From Labia minor (taxonomy: Eukaryota; Arthropoda; Insecta; Dermaptera; Spongiphoridae), in the NCBI GenBank assembly GCA_963082975.1, contig OY720346.1, positions 75,198,767 to 75,262,766 on the forward strand: 64,000 bases of DNA, written 5' to 3'. The translations under genes and the position numbers were made by a program. The notes below the pieces were generated by a model. The model saw only the letters and a program-made list of their open reading frames with translations. It was not told the origin of the DNA and did not search any database. Positions 24,797 to 63,889 of the stretch are shown in pieces (within the stretch, counting starts at the first letter, position 1; each line of letters opens with the position of its first letter).

Positions 24797-25396
24797 CATT
24801 CAGTGAGTAGCTCTCGAATAGATTGGATGTGTTAAATCGGATTCCTGCTCCCGAAGTGGATTTGTGGGACCTTCTAGCTTTTTTTTGTTTCAAGTCTGCC
24901 AATTTTGGTGAGATCTGATTCACTACGCATGTATATATGTATATTTACTTAAATTAAACAAACTGAATTGTCAAATTTTGACAATTTTGTTGTGTTTTTA
25001 TAAAAATTTTATATAATTTTATGTATTTTTTCTATAATTTTCTTGCTAAATAATAGGATTGTTAGTTAAATACTTTCTTATTTTAGATTTTTATCCTTAA
25101 ATCGCCTTATCCAAAATCCTAGTTAAAGATTTTATTTATTTTTAATTTTAAATTATCTTTAATTTTTCCAAGGCTTTATCTCCTAAGGTCAGTCACACCA
25201 AAGAGCCAGGGCTGTGTGAAGAAAATTTATCCTCTCACCTCCCCCCATATCCTTCCCTTGTACACACCTTTTATAAATATAAATGTATATATTTGTATAT
25301 TTTTATTTTTGTTTTTTTTTTTACAATAAGTAAATAGTTAATTAAATAGATTATAGAAATAATTATTGTTTCTATTTTATTATAATATGAGTCGGC

Positions 25397-26890
25397 ATGA
25401 ACTTGGATAAGGAGTCAATAAACCCTTTCCAAGGGACAAAATTACAGAGAACCCCGCCGCTCAAATCTCAAATGGAAGATGTGTGTAAGAAGGATGTAAA
25501 TAGGGAAATCACTGAAAATTCAAATAATGAATTAGAAACATTATCTGAAAATGAAATCTTAAAAAATGAAAATAGTCATTTAAAAGAGGTGATAAAAAAC
25601 CTCACCAAAGATCTTCAAGAAATAAAAAGCAAGATCTTAGGAAATCCTTGCCCTGAAATTACATCTGATAAACAGGAAGTAGACACTAAATTGCAAAATT
25701 TGAAAACTTCCGACAATGCAATTGTATATCTCACGGACGAAGAGGAATTGGAAAATGAAATAGGATGGTCAACGGTAAATAGACATGGGAATAAAAAAAG
25801 GAAAACTTTTTATTCTCCTGAAAATTTACAAAATAAAGAGGACAATTTTGAAAAATCTAATAATAGAAATGCTAAACAGCAAACTACTGAATCATATTGG
25901 TTAAACAATCCAAACGTAAAAACAGCAAATCGTTTTGAAAATCTTCAGGTTGAAACTATAAATAAAAAAACAACTGGAAAAGCAGTAAAACCTCCTCCGA
26001 TCTTTGTAGCGGGAGTTGAAAATATCCAACCGCTAATGAATCTATTAAATAAAATGGGACCAAATTGTTTTAATATAAAATGTTTGAAGGAAAATGAGGT
26101 TAAGATCCAACCATATGAACCTCACATTTATACATCAATTGTTAAAGAGTTAGAATCTAAAAACACTCAATTCCATACATATCAGTTAAAGAAAGATAGG
26201 CCTTTTAAAGTTGTATTAAGGAACATGCATCATTCAATGCCTGCCGAAGATATTAAAGAGGCACTACTAAATCATGGACATGATGTAATAAATTTACACA
26301 ATATAAAAAATAAAAATAAAAACCCTCTACCTTTATTCTTCATAGACCTTAAACCTAAACCTAATAATAAAGAAATATACAATATTAAAAATATCCTTAA
26401 TACAATTGTCACATTTGAGCCACCATATCCTAAAAGAGAAATTCCTCAATGTTTTAATTGTCAACTTTTTGGCCACACAAAAAATTTTTGTGCAAGAAAA
26501 CCCAAATGTGTGAAATGTGCTATGGCACATTTAACAAAAGACTGCAAAATTAAGGATAACAATACAACTCCTTTATGTGCTAACTGCGGCGAAAACCATC
26601 CAGCAAGTTATAAAGGATGTACAATATATCAAGAGTTAAAAAATAAACAGTTTCCACCTTTGAGGATAAAGGTATCTCAACAACCAAAAGAGAAAATATC
26701 CCCCAATTCCAAAAATGAGACCATTGAGAGTGTTCCACCAGTACAAAATGCATGGACTAAAGAGAAACCTACACCAATAAATGTTCAAGAATCAAATTTA
26801 CATAAACTTGAAGATTTTATGCTTAAAATGATGGTTAAAATGGACAAAATGTTAGATATTCTAACAGTTCTTGTAACTAAAATGGCATAA
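25397..26890 (+). CDS. LINE ORF1: gag-like RNA-binding protein
   Basis: 497 residues. The N-terminal third is charged and has a coiled-coil-like Leu/Glu/Lys segment (about 45-80). The middle (about 270-345) resembles the pre-zinc-knuckle domain of Jockey ORF1 proteins (FKVVLRNMHHSMPAEDIKEA). Three zinc knuckles follow: CFNCQLFGHTKNFC at 352-365, CVKCAMAHLTKDC, and CANCGENHPASYKGC. Such proteins package the element RNA into RNP particles. The stop codon overlaps the ORF2 start as TAATG at 26888-26892, suggesting stop-restart translation of ORF2. Confidence 0.94.
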   Translation: MNLDKESINPFQGTKLQRTPPLKSQMEDVCKKDVNREITENSNNELETLSENEILKNENSHLKEVIKNLTKDLQEIKSKILGNPCPEITSDKQEVDTKLQNLKTSDNAIVYLTDEEELENEIGWSTVNRHGNKKRKTFYSPENLQNKEDNFEKSNNRNAKQQTTESYWLNNPNVKTANRFENLQVETINKKTTGKAVKPPPIFVAGVENIQPLMNLLNKMGPNCFNIKCLKENEVKIQPYEPHIYTSIVKELESKNTQFHTYQLKKDRPFKVVLRNMHHSMPAEDIKEALLNHGHDVINLHNIKNKNKNPLPLFFIDLKPKPNNKEIYNIKNILNTIVTFEPPYPKREIPQCFNCQLFGHTKNFCARKPKCVKCAMAHLTKDCKIKDNNTTPLCANCGENHPASYKGCTIYQELKNKQFPPLRIKVSQQPKEKISPNSKNETIESVPPVQNAWTKEKPTPINVQESNLHKLEDFMLKMMVKMDKMLDILTVLVTKMA

Positions 26891-29574
26891 TGGATAGAAA
26901 AACACTTAAAATTGTAATATGGAATGCAAATGGTTTATTTAATCATTTACTCGAAATCAAAAAATTTCTTATAATTAACAACATTGATATTATGCTCATA
27001 AGTGAAACACATTTAACTAATAGAAGCTACATTAAAATACCCCAATACAATATATATGACACTAAGCATCCGGATGGAAAAGCTAGAGGAGGAACTGCTA
27101 TTATAATTAAAAAAAATATTCAACACCATCAATTAAATAGCTATTCGGAAAAGCATCTTCAAGCAACAACAATTGAAATTGATGAATGGCTAGGGAAACT
27201 TTCACTATCTGCAGTTTACTGCCCGCCGGGTACTAAAATTGAGTGTGAACATTTTAAACAGTTTTTTAATACCTTGGGCCACAAATTCATCTCAGGTGGA
27301 GATTTCAACGCTAAGCACACCCATTGGGGCTCAAGATTGACAACACCTAGAGGGAGGCAACTTTACCAAGCTATTCAAGAAAGAAATCTGAATGAAATTT
27401 CAACTCGTCAACCAACCTACTGGCCTTCAGATCCAAAAAAAACCCCTGATCTATTAGATTTTTGTATTTTTAAAGGTATTTCTCTTGATTGCTTAAATAT
27501 TGAATCTAGTTTGGATTTATCATCTGATCACTCTCCTATAATTTTAACTGTATCAACCCAATTAGATAAAAGAGTAAAAAATGTTCCCCTTTTCAATAGA
27601 TATACAAATTGGAACCACTATAGAAATTTAATAACAAAAAATATAAACCTCAATATTTGTATAAAAGACAAACATGATATTGAGGATAATATAAACAACT
27701 TAACAAAAATAATTCAAAAAGCTTCTCTGCAATCTACCCCCATAGCAAATATTAAAAATCAAAAAAACCTTTGTTCTCAATTAATTAAGGACAAAATAGA
27801 TGAAAAACGCAAAGCTAGACAGAGATGGCAAAAGACAAGGTCCCCTACGGATAAAAAAACTCTAAATAAATGTATAAAAAATTTAAAAAAAATATTAAAA
27901 ATTGAAAAAGAAAAAGGTATTCAGAAATACTTAAGTAACCTTAGTCCAGGGGAAGAAAGCAATTACTCTTTGTGGAAGGCAACTAAGACCTTAAAAAGAC
28001 CCCAAACCCAAATTCCACCAATAAAAACTTCTAAGGGATGGGCTAGAGGTGAGAAAGAAAAAGTAGATACTTTTGCTAAGCACTTATTTAATGTGTTCAA
28101 TGAACCCCCTGAAAATGAAAATAAATACAAGTGTGATGAAATCATCATAAAAACTAGTAAATTACATAAGGACCCCCATAGATTTAAAAAAATCAAACTT
28201 GAGCAGGTTCTTGACGAAATTAAAAATATAAAAGATAAAAAATCTCCTGGATATGATCTGATTTCAGGCAAATTATTAAAAGAACTTCCCAAAATAGCCT
28301 TTATTTTTATTGCAAATATTTATAATGCTATAATTAAATTAAATTACTTTCCAACATTATGGAAAGTAGCTCAAATTATAATGATACCAAAACCAGGTAA
28401 AAATCCAAATGAATTAACATCATATAGGCCTATTAGTCTTCTTCCAATTTTGGGAAAGATCTTGGAAAAAATTTTATTCCGAGAATTAAAGCCTTACTTA
28501 ACAAATATAATTCCTGAATATCAATTCGGCTTTCGTCAAGAACACTCTACTATCGAACAGGTGCATAGGGTAGTTAAAAAAATTAAAGATGCATTTGAAA
28601 GTAAATCTTACTGTGGAATAGTATATCTTGATATAACACAGGCTTTTGATAAAATTTGGCACACAGGGTTAATTTATAAAATTAAAAACTATTTACCAGA
28701 CACATTTTATCAATTATTAAAGTCTTATCTATCGAATAGACACTTTTTTGTTAAATATGGGTGTTCTTCCTCCAACTTAATGCAAATTAGAGCAGGAGTC
28801 CCTCAGGGTAGTATTCTAGGGCCAGCCCTTTTCCTATTATATATGATAGACATGCCTCTCTCTCCTTATAATGACATAGCAACTTTCGCTGATGATACTG
28901 CAATCATTTCAACAAATGTAAATCATAATGTCGTATCTGAAAGACTTCAAACTCATCTCGATATGTTATATCTTTGGTTTAAAAGATGGCGGCTAAAGAT
29001 AAATGCAACCAAATCTATATTTGTCACCTACACCTTAAATAGGCAAACATGCCCACCAATATACATGAATAAATCTATCATTCCGCAAAAAGATGAGGCA
29101 AAATACCTAGGAATCCATCTAGATAGGCGCTTGACTTGGAAAAAACATATTTCAGCTAGAATTGTCCACTCAAGGGAAGAGTATAGAAAACTATATTGGC
29201 TTTTGGGGAGACATTCTAGCCTAGGATTAGAAAGCAAAGTTCTTCTATACAAATCCATAATCAAACCAAAACTGATGTATGGGATCCAACTCTGGGGATC
29301 AGCCTCAAAAACTAACATAAAAAAAATTGAAAGTTTTCAAAACAAAACACTTAAAAATCTTGTAAGAGCCCCGTGGTATGTTCCAATTAGATTCATACAA
29401 AGGGACTTAGAAATTAAAAACTTAAATGATGAAATAAACATCCTAAGTGAAAAGTATATTAAAAAAATGGAAAACCATCCAAATGTGTTAGTTAAAAAAT
29501 TACTAGTTAGGGATGATACAATCAAGAGATTAAAAAGATATGATATATTGGATCTCGTTAATAGAAAATTTTGA
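26890..29574 (+). CDS. LINE ORF2: AP-like endonuclease and reverse transcriptase
   Basis: 894 residues. The N-terminal endonuclease (about 5-230) keeps its active-site blocks: WNANGL, SETHL, GGDFNAKHTHWGS, and SSDHSP at the C-terminal His/Asp motif. The reverse transcriptase (about 470-760) has SYRPISLLPILGKILEKI, YQFGFRQEHST, DITQAFDKIW, GVPQGSILGPALFLLY and the catalytic TFADDTA at 665-671. No RNase H domain follows, consistent with many Jockey-clade elements. No internal stop or frameshift was seen. The protein nicks target DNA and reverse-transcribes the element RNA there. The ATG shares its A with the ORF1 stop. Confidence 0.95.
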   Translation: MDRKTLKIVIWNANGLFNHLLEIKKFLIINNIDIMLISETHLTNRSYIKIPQYNIYDTKHPDGKARGGTAIIIKKNIQHHQLNSYSEKHLQATTIEIDEWLGKLSLSAVYCPPGTKIECEHFKQFFNTLGHKFISGGDFNAKHTHWGSRLTTPRGRQLYQAIQERNLNEISTRQPTYWPSDPKKTPDLLDFCIFKGISLDCLNIESSLDLSSDHSPIILTVSTQLDKRVKNVPLFNRYTNWNHYRNLITKNINLNICIKDKHDIEDNINNLTKIIQKASLQSTPIANIKNQKNLCSQLIKDKIDEKRKARQRWQKTRSPTDKKTLNKCIKNLKKILKIEKEKGIQKYLSNLSPGEESNYSLWKATKTLKRPQTQIPPIKTSKGWARGEKEKVDTFAKHLFNVFNEPPENENKYKCDEIIIKTSKLHKDPHRFKKIKLEQVLDEIKNIKDKKSPGYDLISGKLLKELPKIAFIFIANIYNAIIKLNYFPTLWKVAQIIMIPKPGKNPNELTSYRPISLLPILGKILEKILFRELKPYLTNIIPEYQFGFRQEHSTIEQVHRVVKKIKDAFESKSYCGIVYLDITQAFDKIWHTGLIYKIKNYLPDTFYQLLKSYLSNRHFFVKYGCSSSNLMQIRAGVPQGSILGPALFLLYMIDMPLSPYNDIATFADDTAIISTNVNHNVVSERLQTHLDMLYLWFKRWRLKINATKSIFVTYTLNRQTCPPIYMNKSIIPQKDEAKYLGIHLDRRLTWKKHISARIVHSREEYRKLYWLLGRHSSLGLESKVLLYKSIIKPKLMYGIQLWGSASKTNIKKIESFQNKTLKNLVRAPWYVPIRFIQRDLEIKNLNDEINILSEKYIKKMENHPNVLVKKLLVRDDTIKRLKRYDILDLVNRKF

Positions 29575-40816: not shown

Positions 40817-41603
40817 TCATAAAACATACACCCCTTAAACGTACGTATTAATGGATTGAAAGACCGAAAAGTATGGCCTGTGAATATAACATAATATATA
40901 TTTCGTAATTTGATTACAAAATATTATTAAAATAAATATTTTGTAATTCTATTTTATTTAAATTTATAGTATTTTGTATTTAAGGCAGCGCTGTCTAACG
41001 TAGTTGCTGACGTCAATTAAATTGCCTATTTTAAATTAAGAAAAAACTATTAAAGATGATTTTTCCAGAGGCTGAAATTAATACTGATCGATTTTTCTTT
41101 ATAAATATTATCTATGGTGTGAATTTCCAAAAAATCATTCGAGCGGTTAATATTTCAAAAATACAAATATATAGATATAAATATAGAAATTTTGCTAGTA
41201 TAATTTTGTTATTAAAATTCCTATTTTAAATTAAGAAATAACTAACAAAGATGATTTTTCCCGAGGTTGAAACTAATACAGATCGATTTTCTATATAAAT
41301 ATTCTTTGGTGTGAATTTCCAAAAAATCCTTCGAGCGGTTTAATATTTCAAAAATACAAATATATATATATATATAGATAGAAATTTTGTTAGCATAATT
41401 TTATTATTAAAATTCCTAATTCAAATTAAGAAATAACTAACAAAGATGATTTTTCCCGAGGCTGAAACTAATACAGATTGATTTTTCTTTATAAATATTA
41501 TCTATGGTGTTAATTTCAATAAAATCCTTATAGAGGTTTAATATTTAAAAAATCCAAATATATATGTATATATGTATATATACAATTTTTGCTACTATAA
41601 AAA
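40815..41603 (+). repeat. Family C repeat with tandem distal modules
   Basis: It starts CATAAAACATACACCCCTTA directly after copy 10. The distal module (AGATGATTTTTCCCGAGG ... TTTTGCTAGTATAATTTT) occurs three times with a period of about 195 bp (near 41050, 41250 and 41445). The array ends about 130 bp upstream of the first CSP exon. Confidence 0.8.
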
Positions 41604-58433: not shown

Positions 58434-61400
58434 ATGGAGTGGGTTAGAGAAGATAAGATAGTAAATACTAATATAAAAAGTGCAGCTGGTGATTCACCAG
58501 CAAAAGTTGCAGCTCAAATACAAAACTTTGCAAAATCGACACAAAGGACGAGTAGTAAATGTTCATTTGGACATCGAAATACAATGACGTTCATAGAGAA
58601 AGAGAAACATTCTAAACCTGGATTTCATTATAATATCCCTTCCACTTGTACACGTTTTGGAATTAACATTGGCCCTAGTTATTCATTTGGAACAAAATTT
58701 CCTGGTAAGTTTTGCCCAAATAGAATTAAAAAAACCTCTAATTTCTTTTAAAAAAATAATAAAACTGTATTCAACTTGTATATAAATTTTAAAAATTCAA
58801 CATGTGTGTGTATTATTAATAATATTAATATGATGAAGAACTACAATCAGTTACAAGTTTTGAAGGCCCCTGAGTCACTTTCACTAAGGTTGAGAGGTTG
58901 TCTGTGTGTATGTGTGTATGTATAATATGTAGACAAGATTACGGTTTGACCTAGAATAATGAAATTTGGTATACGTGCATTATTCAAAATTCGTTCTTTT
59001 CGATCAACTTTTGAGAAAAGTAGCTCTTTCGGAAGATTACCTACAATGTTTTGATTTTTTTTCCTCTAAAGTGACCGTAAAGATAAAGATATAGGTTTGA
59101 TAGTTTTTCACATGATTAAAAATTGTATAAAACTGCTATATATAGAATTTCAGCTTGATTGAATCGCTCTTTTCACATGATTAAAAATTGTATAAAACTG
59201 CTATATATAGAATTTCAGCTTGATTGAATCGCTCTAAGTACCGGAATAAATTTTTTAACACAATTGCCAATCACTCGCCAGCACGTGACGTGGTGTTATC
59301 AACAAAAAACCAAACACGTGCTGGTTTAATAAATATTATTTATTAATTTTAAAATTTATAATTTAATTTAAATAAAATATATGTTATAATTATTCCAATT
59401 CAAATTTGCGAGATAGTCGAGTGGAGACACTCCAGATTTTTAAAGTTATTTCTTGGCTTTACGCCACTCTATCCCCTGTCTTTCATTAATTTGCCTTTAT
59501 AACTGTTTTTCTCATCTATTAAATTATCATGGATCAGCACCGGGGCGACAAATTTTGAGGAGCGCCGATATAAATATAAAATATTTTTTTACATTCATTA
59601 TTTTTGTATAATTTTTAACTTTTGCCTTTTTTTACTTTTTTTTATTTGTATATTCTTGTATGAAAGGGTGCCAAATTTAGTTTTGCCTGAAGCGCTCAAA
59701 ACGCTAGAACTGGCCCTGATCTGCATGAAAATTGAGTGAAGTGAAGATCACATTTTTACCTATGAAGAAAAAAAATAATTAAAATAAGTCTGTTTCTTAT
59801 GAACAAAGTATTCACAACTAAAATTCTATGTTTTATTAATGGTATCAAAAAACTTGAATCAGATGTAATACTAGTAAAGATAACAAATGATTTATATCAT
59901 TCCTAAAAATTAATTGGCACATCACATTCGGAATAAAATAGAGCCCAGACAATCAATCTTTTAAAAAGAGTTCATTCAAATTTTAAACCTTTTATTATTA
60001 TTATTTATTATTATTATTATTAATATGTATTAAAAAATATTCATAATTTATAAAACATTTGAAAAAAAATAAACTTGTTTAATTATAAAATTTAATTTAT
60101 TTAATTTGATTTGTTTCAGGTACGTTTGATCGATATTTAAGAGATCGTATTGATGATCAAAAACCATTACCAGATCAAAATGAAAAGATTAAATTTATTA
60201 AAAAAAAAACTAAACGTGGCCCAGTTCTATTAGGTCGCAGTTGGAATACAATATTACCTCCAAACACGAATCCTGGACCAGGCTCCTATAATATCCCCTC
60301 CACATTTGGCCAGGGACCTTCCATTAAATATAAACAACCCTCGAGGTGAGCAAATCGAAAATTGATTAATCCTATTTCGTTTTCTGATTAGTATTGTATA
60401 TAAAACAAAATGAAATAAAATTTTTGCATTGAAATTTTGAGAAATTTAGAGCAGGATATTCAAAACCGATCCAAGGACGAATTCCCTGGGCCAGGACATT
60501 ACGATGTTACACCCGTGGGGGTGATAAAAAAGGTCGCCCCGGCTTACGGACTCCGAGGAAGATTTAAACAACCTAAAAATACAATGGACGATATTCCTGC
60601 ACCTAATAGATATGCAGTGAGAACCAGATTTTTAATTTTTTAATAAATTATACGTGTTTTTATTAATAATAATTTTTTTGTTTTTTATCCTTTTTGAGAT
60701 TGAGTTTTGTAAATACGATTATGTAGCAATAAAAATATTTATTTTTGAAATTAAAGTAATTTTAAAAAAAATCAGATCTAATGAATTGAATTTTGTTTCT
60801 GACTAAAATTAAATTTAAAAAATTCAGTTTTTTAATTAAATTCCATAAATTAACATTATTTATGATCGAGGAAAGGGAACGGAGATTAATAATCGATGAA
60901 TAATATGGAAAAAAGTTTAAATAATAGAAAAAAATTCATTCATTCATATATTAGTAAATTAATTAAGGCGCCACAGGGTGGGAGGTAGCATAGCTGGCTC
61001 ACATTTTCAAGATCCCAGGTTCAAGTCCCGGGCATGGCAAAGGAATTTCTCTAGCTGGGGTCTATAGGACGGAGTCAACCCAGCCTCAAAATTGGGAAGC
61101 GAGTGGATAAAGAAAATCAAGGTAAATGTTGATAGGAACCGTTTTCCTGATCATATGACACCTCATTAATATTAGCGACTTGATAGACATTGTCCTTGCG
61201 TAGGACGTAGAAAAGTCAGAGGTATTAGTAAATTAATTATAAATTAGTTAAGAAAATTAAATAATAAATAAATATTTTAATTGCAATTTGGTATCAACTA
61301 TTGTTAATTATAATATTATTATTATTTTATATAATTACAAAGTTGTTTGTAATTGTTCAACAATTTCAGATTTCTAATTGTACAATAACAAGAATGAAAT

Positions 61401-61997: not shown

Positions 61998-63384
61998 CTT
62001 CCTCTGTCCGAAAATATGGTATACATTTTTTTAAAAACGTAGGATTAAGGAATGTAATTAATATTTCCAGTTTTTCTCTTTTATAGATATATAAGTACTA
62101 GTTGAACATCTGAAACAACAAATGACACTGCAATAGCTCATCCGTATCAAAAATAATTGACAAATAAAAAACAATGAATTGTATTAAAATTTTAATTAAT
62201 CACATGTGATTGCAAAATGACAAATGTTAATGAAAATTGTGATCAAGTGTGTAGAAGTTTGTAATCGAAACAATTGTCACTTGATGAGCATAATGGTATT
62301 CTGCTAAAAGTGTTACAGTATAAGAAAGACGATGCTATTAATAACTTTGCTGCCAATTTTGAGGTTAGCTATTTAACTGTTACCAAAATTTAGCATGTAG
62401 TTAAGCAGCAGTATAGTGAAGGCCAATTATCTACAGATGTTTCATCAAAAAAGAAGAAATGGGGAAGAAAGCGTAAGGATTATTCAGAAAAATTGACAAA
62501 ATTTAAAAATTTTCCTTTAAATCGTCGTGGAACGATTCGTAGTTTGTCTGTTGCTGTTAGTATCCCAAAGTCAACACTTTTTGATGTTTTAAAACGAGGT
62601 ACTACGTTTAAACGCATGTTAATATATCTAACAGACCAAAATAAGGTTGTTAGATTAGCGTTTTGCTTGTCCAAGGTTAAACCAGATAGATATTCCCAAA
62701 ATATGTACAATTACCTCCACATTGTAGAAAAATTATTTTATTTAACACAATCAAAACGTTCATAATACCTTATTCTAGATCAGCGGTCGTGGAACTTTTT
62801 TAATCATTACCCCAAAATATTTTGGAGTAAGTTGATATTACCCTATGGTGAAGAGCAAAAAATAAACAACGAAATCGCCTCTTTTTAGCATTTTTCCTAT
62901 TATAGCCCCCCATGATGATTTTGAAAAGAAAATAATTGGTAAAAATACTAACAGGTTTATAAAATAGCAAATTAAAAATATATACTTTTTACTCACAAAA
63001 GTTTCATTTTTAACCTCAAAAATTTCATTTTCACCCCATTTGGGGTAATTTACCCCGGTTCCCCGACCGTTGCGCTAGAGGAAGAACTCCATAGAAGCTG
63101 TAAAAGCAAACGTTTCATTACAAAAGTGATGTTCATGGCAGCTGTAGCTTACGATCCATGTAAAAAAACATTTTTTGGTTGAAAAATTGGTCTCTGGCCT
63201 TAAAGGAGTTTCAAGACTCAAGAGAATAAAAATAACGAAAAATATCGAGTCAAATTCAGCAAAGGAATGCAACAAAATGATCCTGGAAAAATAAATATTA
63301 TTTAAGTAGTATTAATTTTTACTTTATTATAATAAATTATTTTATAAAAATAAAAAATAATTTAGCAATACTTCCTATTCACCA
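61998..63384 (+). mobile_element. Plant-type (DD39D-like) mariner pseudogene
   Basis: The left end is CTTCCTCTGTCCGAAAATAT. Transposase remnants follow in order. A helix-turn-helix-like NNFAANFEVSYLTV lies near 62340. From 62493, RRGTIRSLSVAVSIPKSTLF leads to MYNYLHIVEKLFYLT. After a nested hAT MITE, DEEELHRSCKSKRFITKVMF continues to AAVAYD. These blocks match my knowledge of plant Soymar-like mariners (RRTTIRSL, HIDEKWFYLT, TCKSKRFI.KVMF) rather than usual insect mariners. The first catalytic Asp is replaced by Val (HIVEKLF), and stops and frameshifts follow, so it is dead. The right boundary is uncertain. Confidence 0.8.
62781..63072. mobile_element. hAT MITE, GGGGTAAATTACC family, copy 2 (nested)
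   Basis: Ends CAGCGGTCGTGGAAC and GGTTCCCCGACCGTTG. It sits inside the plant-type mariner between CTAGAT and CTAGAG, a degenerate target duplication. The transposase reading continues across it. Interior blocks ATTACCCCAAAATATTTTGG and ATAGCCCCC match the copy at 55979. Confidence 0.85.
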
Positions 63385-63417
63385 GATTGTGCTCCATCAG
63401 ATTATAGGTATATAATA

Positions 63418-63619
63418 CTCTCTGTCCGAAATTATGGTATACATTTTTTAAATTTAGTATTTAAATTCTAATTTTTATTTTATTATTATAAATTATTAAA
63501 AAAACCATAAAAAATAATTTAGCGATATTATAGTAGGCGTATCATGTACGTTTGTATAGGTAGGGCTGTTAAATCATCATAATAATGTGTATGTATATCA
63601 TATTTTCGGACAGAGGGAG
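63418..63619. mobile_element. Stowaway-like MITE
   Basis: 202 bp with inverted ends CTCTCTGTCCGAAATTATGG and CTCCCTCTGTCCGAAAATAT (complement), flanked by TA on both sides (63416-63417 and 63620-63621). The ends match the left terminus of the adjacent plant-type mariner. AT-rich, non-coding interior. Confidence 0.85.
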
Positions 63620-63889
63620 TAATAATTATAATATTATATGGAAGAATATTACATATATGTTAAGAATATTTTCTCCAAAATTCAAAAGTATAAATAAGTA
63701 AATATAACTTATAATTATATAAATGTATAACATCTATTAAATATTTCTATCAATATTAATAAAAGATAGATTTACTTTCTATCTTCCCAATTATTCAAAT
63801 CTAAATCATGATTTTAAATGTAAATTGGAGAAGTGAAGAAAGAATTTTAAGAAGATATAATTAAATTGAATCGTATACTATTTATTTAT

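Follow-up and report, generated by a model that had tools for sequence, protein, structure and literature searches.

We take an N-terminal helix-turn-helix domain (DUF7769) and a GRKR motif to be features of the DD39D/GT (PlantMar) mariners, and DUF7769 is presumably tied to plant mariners. The target of DD34D mariners is TA. A small number of GT elements in animals was reportedly noted by Wang et al. in 2021. The plant family has been named PlantMar and is described as limited to plants and a few oomycetes (PMC7325037). GT was likewise placed in plants in another report, which lists it among the families with horizontal transfer (PMC9777934). The plant Stowaway elements have the consensus terminus CTCCCTCCRT and a TA target (PMC1925063). 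One insect carrier of a DD39D/GT element has been reported, the bee Lepidotrigona ventralis hoosana, in which an incomplete element of 2381 bp begins with CTCCC and is present in three copies, none of them intact (PMC8472432).

In this study, we analysed a stretch of 64,000 nucleotides of the insect Labia minor (the window, C4:75198767-75262766) together with the whole assembly of 604 Mb in 71 contigs. Judged from sequence, positions 61998-63370 of the window are likely what remains of a mariner of the DD39D type (Guest/GT, PlantMar) that resides in an insect genome. The ends, the TA flanks, the shared deletion, the spread of copies, the DUF7769 match and the catalytic spacing in relatives were observed directly. 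A sequence-only reading of the window had proposed that the insect carries a mariner of plant type (DD39D-like), and this was supported. The stretch 61998-63622 matched a plant-type probe, written by hand and not a real plant sequence, at 47.0 bits. Among 200 exact dinucleotide shuffles of the same stretch, 124 gave any match and the best reached 21.9 bits; an earlier, cruder set of 200 shuffles gave 108 with any match and a best score of 23.9 bits. The element resembles PlantMar (Soymar/Osmar-type) elements and Stowaway MITEs in its CTCCCTC ends, TA target, spacing of 39 in related relics and MITE derivatives (PMC7325037, PMC1925063), whereas its host is an insect and not a plant or oomycete; the plant side of this comparison was made through the hand-written probes. 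It shares with the bee element the CTCCC start, the incomplete transposase, the lack of an intact copy and the insect host (PMC8472432). Compared by description only, the bee has three copies of a 2381-bp element, whereas here 29 copies of a deletion derivative were examined and further subgroups are present. The find is thus a further example of a kind already reported in a bee, not a new kind. The suggestion of an under-recognised animal lineage is weakened, since that lineage already bears the name DD39D/Guest and has been recorded in that one bee species (PMC8472432).

We then determined the anatomy of the window copy by comparison with 28 other copies of its family, designated family A. 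The copy (61998-63370, + strand) is degenerate, non-autonomous and truncated at its 3' end. The start at 61998 was as first read; the end was moved to about 63370, with 62781-63077 being a separate insertion and 63371-63417 a scrap of another mariner. The 5' terminal inverted repeat CTTCCTCTGTCCGAAAATATGGTATACAT occupies 61998-62026 (+ strand). Its terminus, beginning at 61998, is Stowaway-like as had been claimed, but reads CTTCCTCTGTCCGAAAATATGG, one mismatch away from the CTCCC form that had been quoted. The 5' flank of this copy is TG, whereas TA is found in most relatives. A first helix-turn-helix region resembling DUF7769 follows at 62265-62393 (+ strand); DUF7769 scored 16.8 bits in the read-through of 62265-62765, under the Pfam cut-off of 27. 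The adjoining transposase block (62394-62765, + strand) contains the GRKR motif (KKKKWGRKRKDYSEKL, 62463-62474, + strand), a second stretch, RRGTIRSLSVAVSIPKSTLF, that looks by eye like a helix-turn-helix, and the first-Asp block.

The three peptides named in the sequence-only reading were all present and in order, with RRGTIRSLSVAVSIPKSTLF and LHIVEKLFYLT in the frame 62394-62765 and HRSCKSKRFITKVMF in the frame 62976-63182. At the first catalytic Asp site (62724-62726, + strand) the codon is GTA (Val), whereas relatives such as L020 have the Asp within HIDEKWFY. The block 3' of this site (EEELHRSCKSKRFITKVMFMAAVA...KIGLWP...; 63078-63290, + strand) is frameshifted. It leads into the junction region of the shared deletion (63285-63305, + strand), where the frame runs out into 3' non-coding sequence and the second and third Asp are missing. 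The loss of the third Asp had been recognised before; the second Asp is gone as well, and the first has become Val. The copy is damaged by stops, frameshifts, the Asp-to-Val change and an insertion. A PDB sequence search gave one match, with an E value of 0.089, which is not meaningful. An AlphaFold model of the read-through had a mean pLDDT of 39.6 and was set aside.

The insertion at 62781-63077 is putatively hAT-like, an assignment made by its ends; a repeat search of it found no long inverted ends. A genome DNA search found at least 17 other near-complete copies of it, 85-92% identical. The insertion is absent from six mariner copies (L010, L011, L014, L015, L022 and L025), which are uninterrupted at this site. 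On the other side of the 63371-63417 scrap lies a short, TA-flanked MITE related to family A (63418-63619, + strand), in which the 5' end is fused to some 165 bases from the 3' end. The terminus in its CTCCCTCTGTCCGAAAATAT form is found here on the - strand, ending at 63619. In the L014-based family A consensus, the 3' end has a second end motif, CATATTTTCGGACA, whose start lies 36 bases inward of the outer motif, whereas a single end motif is present in the window MITE.

Next, the copies in the genome were examined. A genome DNA search returned at least 73 matching pieces, with the best 40 of 1055 candidates scored. We examined 29 family A copies, including that of the window, on C1, C2, C4, C5, C6 and C9; C4:80835796 is a further possible family A place outside these 29. 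For 28 copies aligned to L014, K2P distances from the majority consensus averaged 0.074 (range 0.048-0.102); this choice of reference biases the figure towards shared columns. The 22-base end motif CTCCCTCTGTCCGAAAATATGG was found with up to two mismatches at 59 places genome-wide, some of which are ends of the sister family B, and the backwards control gave none. TA adjoined 16 of the 21 recognised 5' ends and 14 of the 18 recognised 3' ends at family A loci. Family A thus has the short inverted ends beginning with CTCCC and the TA target of DD39D/GT (PlantMar) elements. Separately, the end CTCCATCTGTCCGAAAATATGG occurs six times within 78 kb at C10:68628277-68705918, always on the - strand and with no listed partner, which may reflect local duplication of a larger segment.

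The reading frame of the relatives is lost after ...ESITAKECKKMILEKLI. Across this deletion point, 20 of the 29 copies align in one piece (with 16 or more bases on the coding side, and 20 or more on the other). A stricter test with 40 and 30 bases was passed by 17 of the 29, losing L010, L011, L024 and L051 and gaining L023. Eight copies failed both tests: L022 crosses by 14 bases, and L013, L015, L018, L019, L027, L047 and L050 reach one side at most and are uninformative on the deletion. Both the second and the third Asp are lost through the shared deletion. No family A copy with either residue was listed among the best 150 of 1135 candidates or in a second search in which 52 of 52 candidates were scored. 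All 29 copies are broken deletion derivatives, and none is a complete 2-6 kb element whose transposase is intact; this absence is a matter of decay, not of kind.

We also considered a longer form of the element, since L011, L022 and L051 have about 580 extra bases near the deletion point and L024 about 800. This was ruled out: comparison with other loci showed the extra stretches to be common interspersed repeats of two kinds, and in these four copies they gave no match to the catalytic probe. The two repeats differ, being about 580 and 650 bases long, and each recurs in many of the loci examined; they share one insertion base, before ATGATC. They lie at about 2065-2650 in L011, 1970-2543 in L051 and 302-954 in L024, as if this base in three mariner copies were a preferred target.

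The simplest reading of one deletion common to so many copies is that a single derivative was multiplied by a transposase from elsewhere. Family A therefore probably spread as a deletion derivative mobilised in trans. The full-length, autonomous parent would have encoded a transposase in which a GRKR linker accompanied two helix-turn-helix domains and a catalytic core of the D,D39,D type. This transposase would have bound the CTCCCTCTGTCC ends, excised the element and reinserted it at a TA site. A single derivative with an internal deletion may then have kept the coding part for DNA binding and the first Asp, lost the second and third Asp, and spread in trans; the shorter MITEs may have arisen in the same way. 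Later, the reading frame, first Asp and 3' end of the window copy would have been lost, and the hAT-like insertion gained.

Family A carries DUF7769, the GRKR motif and the HIDEKWFY first-Asp block. In copy L016, DUF7769 scored 31.5 bits against the cut-off of 27, and the N-terminal piece of this copy matched DUF7769 and not HTH_48. Among the genome places listed at E <= 0.01, DUF7769 was over the cut-off in six of seven. Two of these six belong to a second family, family B, with CTCCCTCTGTCCGGAAATATGG and close variants as its ends. Family B (L044, C6:56503136-56505004; L045, C2:45892360-45892900) is TA-flanked and DD39D-type, with the DUF7769 DNA-binding part standing right before the end, and about a dozen further N-terminal places were seen. 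Literature searches on DUF7769, on Stowaway in insects and on DLGFF with mariner found no paper.

In the earlier reading, the spacing between the second and third Asp was held to be beyond measurement because the third Asp was lost. That is so for family A, but the spacing could be measured in related relics. Two relic groups with plant-type catalytic blocks were found, R1 (L068, L071, L073) and R2 (L069, L070, L072), using a second-to-third-Asp probe partly written by hand. With the third-Asp positions picked by motifs that we chose, the spacing was 39 in three of the five measurable relics (L071, L069 and L072). L068 gave 40, and L070, with a gap of seven residues, gave 32. The second-Asp region is missing from L073, which falls outside these five; among the five, only L071 keeps both Asp letters. 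The spacing of 37 (DD37D/maT) or 41 (DD41D/VS) was seen in none of the five. A CTCCCTCTGT-type end lies no more than about 0.9 kb from each of the three R2 loci; this pattern was found at 21 places genome-wide (10 of them window-type ends) and at 5 in the control. The R2 members are 68-70% alike in DNA. The N-terminus of family B was shown at no R1 locus. The link of family A to these DD39D relics rests on the ends, the general sequence type and co-residence.

These groups bear on how the family came to be in an insect. In a recent horizontal transfer, one plant element would have entered the insect and then spread, as might be expected from family A copies lying only about 7% from their consensus and from the restriction of the family to plants and oomycetes in PMC7325037. 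The further groups with other ends or sequence (family B, R1 and R2) speak instead for several arrivals or long residence, and the DD39D family has already been reported in a bee (PMC8472432). Since there are several subgroups with unequal decay, a single recent arrival is argued against, and we regard it as unlikely. Three scans of viral and prokaryote collections confirmed no relative of the family. The several subgroups favour long residence over a single recent plant jump. We tentatively suggest that insects may hold a long-lived DD39D branch of their own, with several subgroups and Stowaway-type MITEs spreading independently of plants; the plant family could then derive from an arthropod lineage or have exchanged with it more than once. 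If the classification as a resident DD39D mariner holds, it contradicts the published limit to plants and oomycetes (PMC7325037), and the short list of animal records grows. With several DD39D-type subgroups in one chromosome-scale assembly, this insect also offers datable material on the direction and frequency of kingdom crossings.

We further considered whether the element is an ordinary animal mariner (DD34D, DD37D or DD41D) with no more than a resemblance to the plant type. A scrap with the third-Asp motif YSPDCAPSDYR, DD34D-type by motif, adjoins the element at 63371-63417 (+ strand), and family A has lost both of the residues between which its spacing would be counted. The open reading frame table suggested this motif as the missing catalytic end of the element. 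This was ruled out, because a genome search found the 30-base core of the scrap with up to three mismatches at 13 places including that of the window, against none in the control. One of the 12 other places, 18 kb away, has HDNARPHV before the scrap and a short window-like MITE after it, and a read of 3 kb there contained no family A element. The spacing in that relic, which is itself damaged with a stop inside, was 28. The scrap is therefore not the element's own end, since the same 30 bases occur elsewhere, once without the element.

The domains and catalytic blocks also set the two types apart. DD34D mariners, such as the resident L067, belong to the same superfamily but have a spacing of 34, a third block reading APSDFHLF, and the domains Transposase_1 (PF01359) and HTH_48 (PF17906), both matched by L067. 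Neither of these domains, nor any other Pfam family, was matched by two family A peptides that span the region of the first Asp. The spacing was 34 in all six resident DD34D mariners examined, and the third blocks of the relics read SPDMNILDL or PDQNVLDLGFF, not APSDYHLF. R1 and R2 were split from the resident DD34D set with support of 100 and 0.985 in two trees, both short, unrooted and built without plant references. These results make it very improbable that the element is an ordinary animal mariner.

Plant contamination of the assembly, a prospect raised in the sequence-only reading and suggested by the plant-like look of the protein, can be dismissed because the 29 copies are scattered over six chromosome-scale contigs, each 60-126 Mb long. 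In addition, other repeats found elsewhere in this genome interlock with the window copy, and the odorant-receptor family PF02949, in keeping with an insect host, has six matches at E <= 1e-10 in the assembly and none in 14 control genomes.

Other repeats were observed in the window. Two adjacent long open frames at 25391-29574 form a non-LTR retrotransposon with open frames; one encodes 499 aa and carries PRE_C2HC, and the other encodes 897 aa and carries domains of an endonuclease and a reverse transcriptase. A tandem array at 41016-41572 has 2.8 copies of a 195-base unit with 88% matches, and a 65-base unit is present in two perfect tandem copies at 59105-59235.
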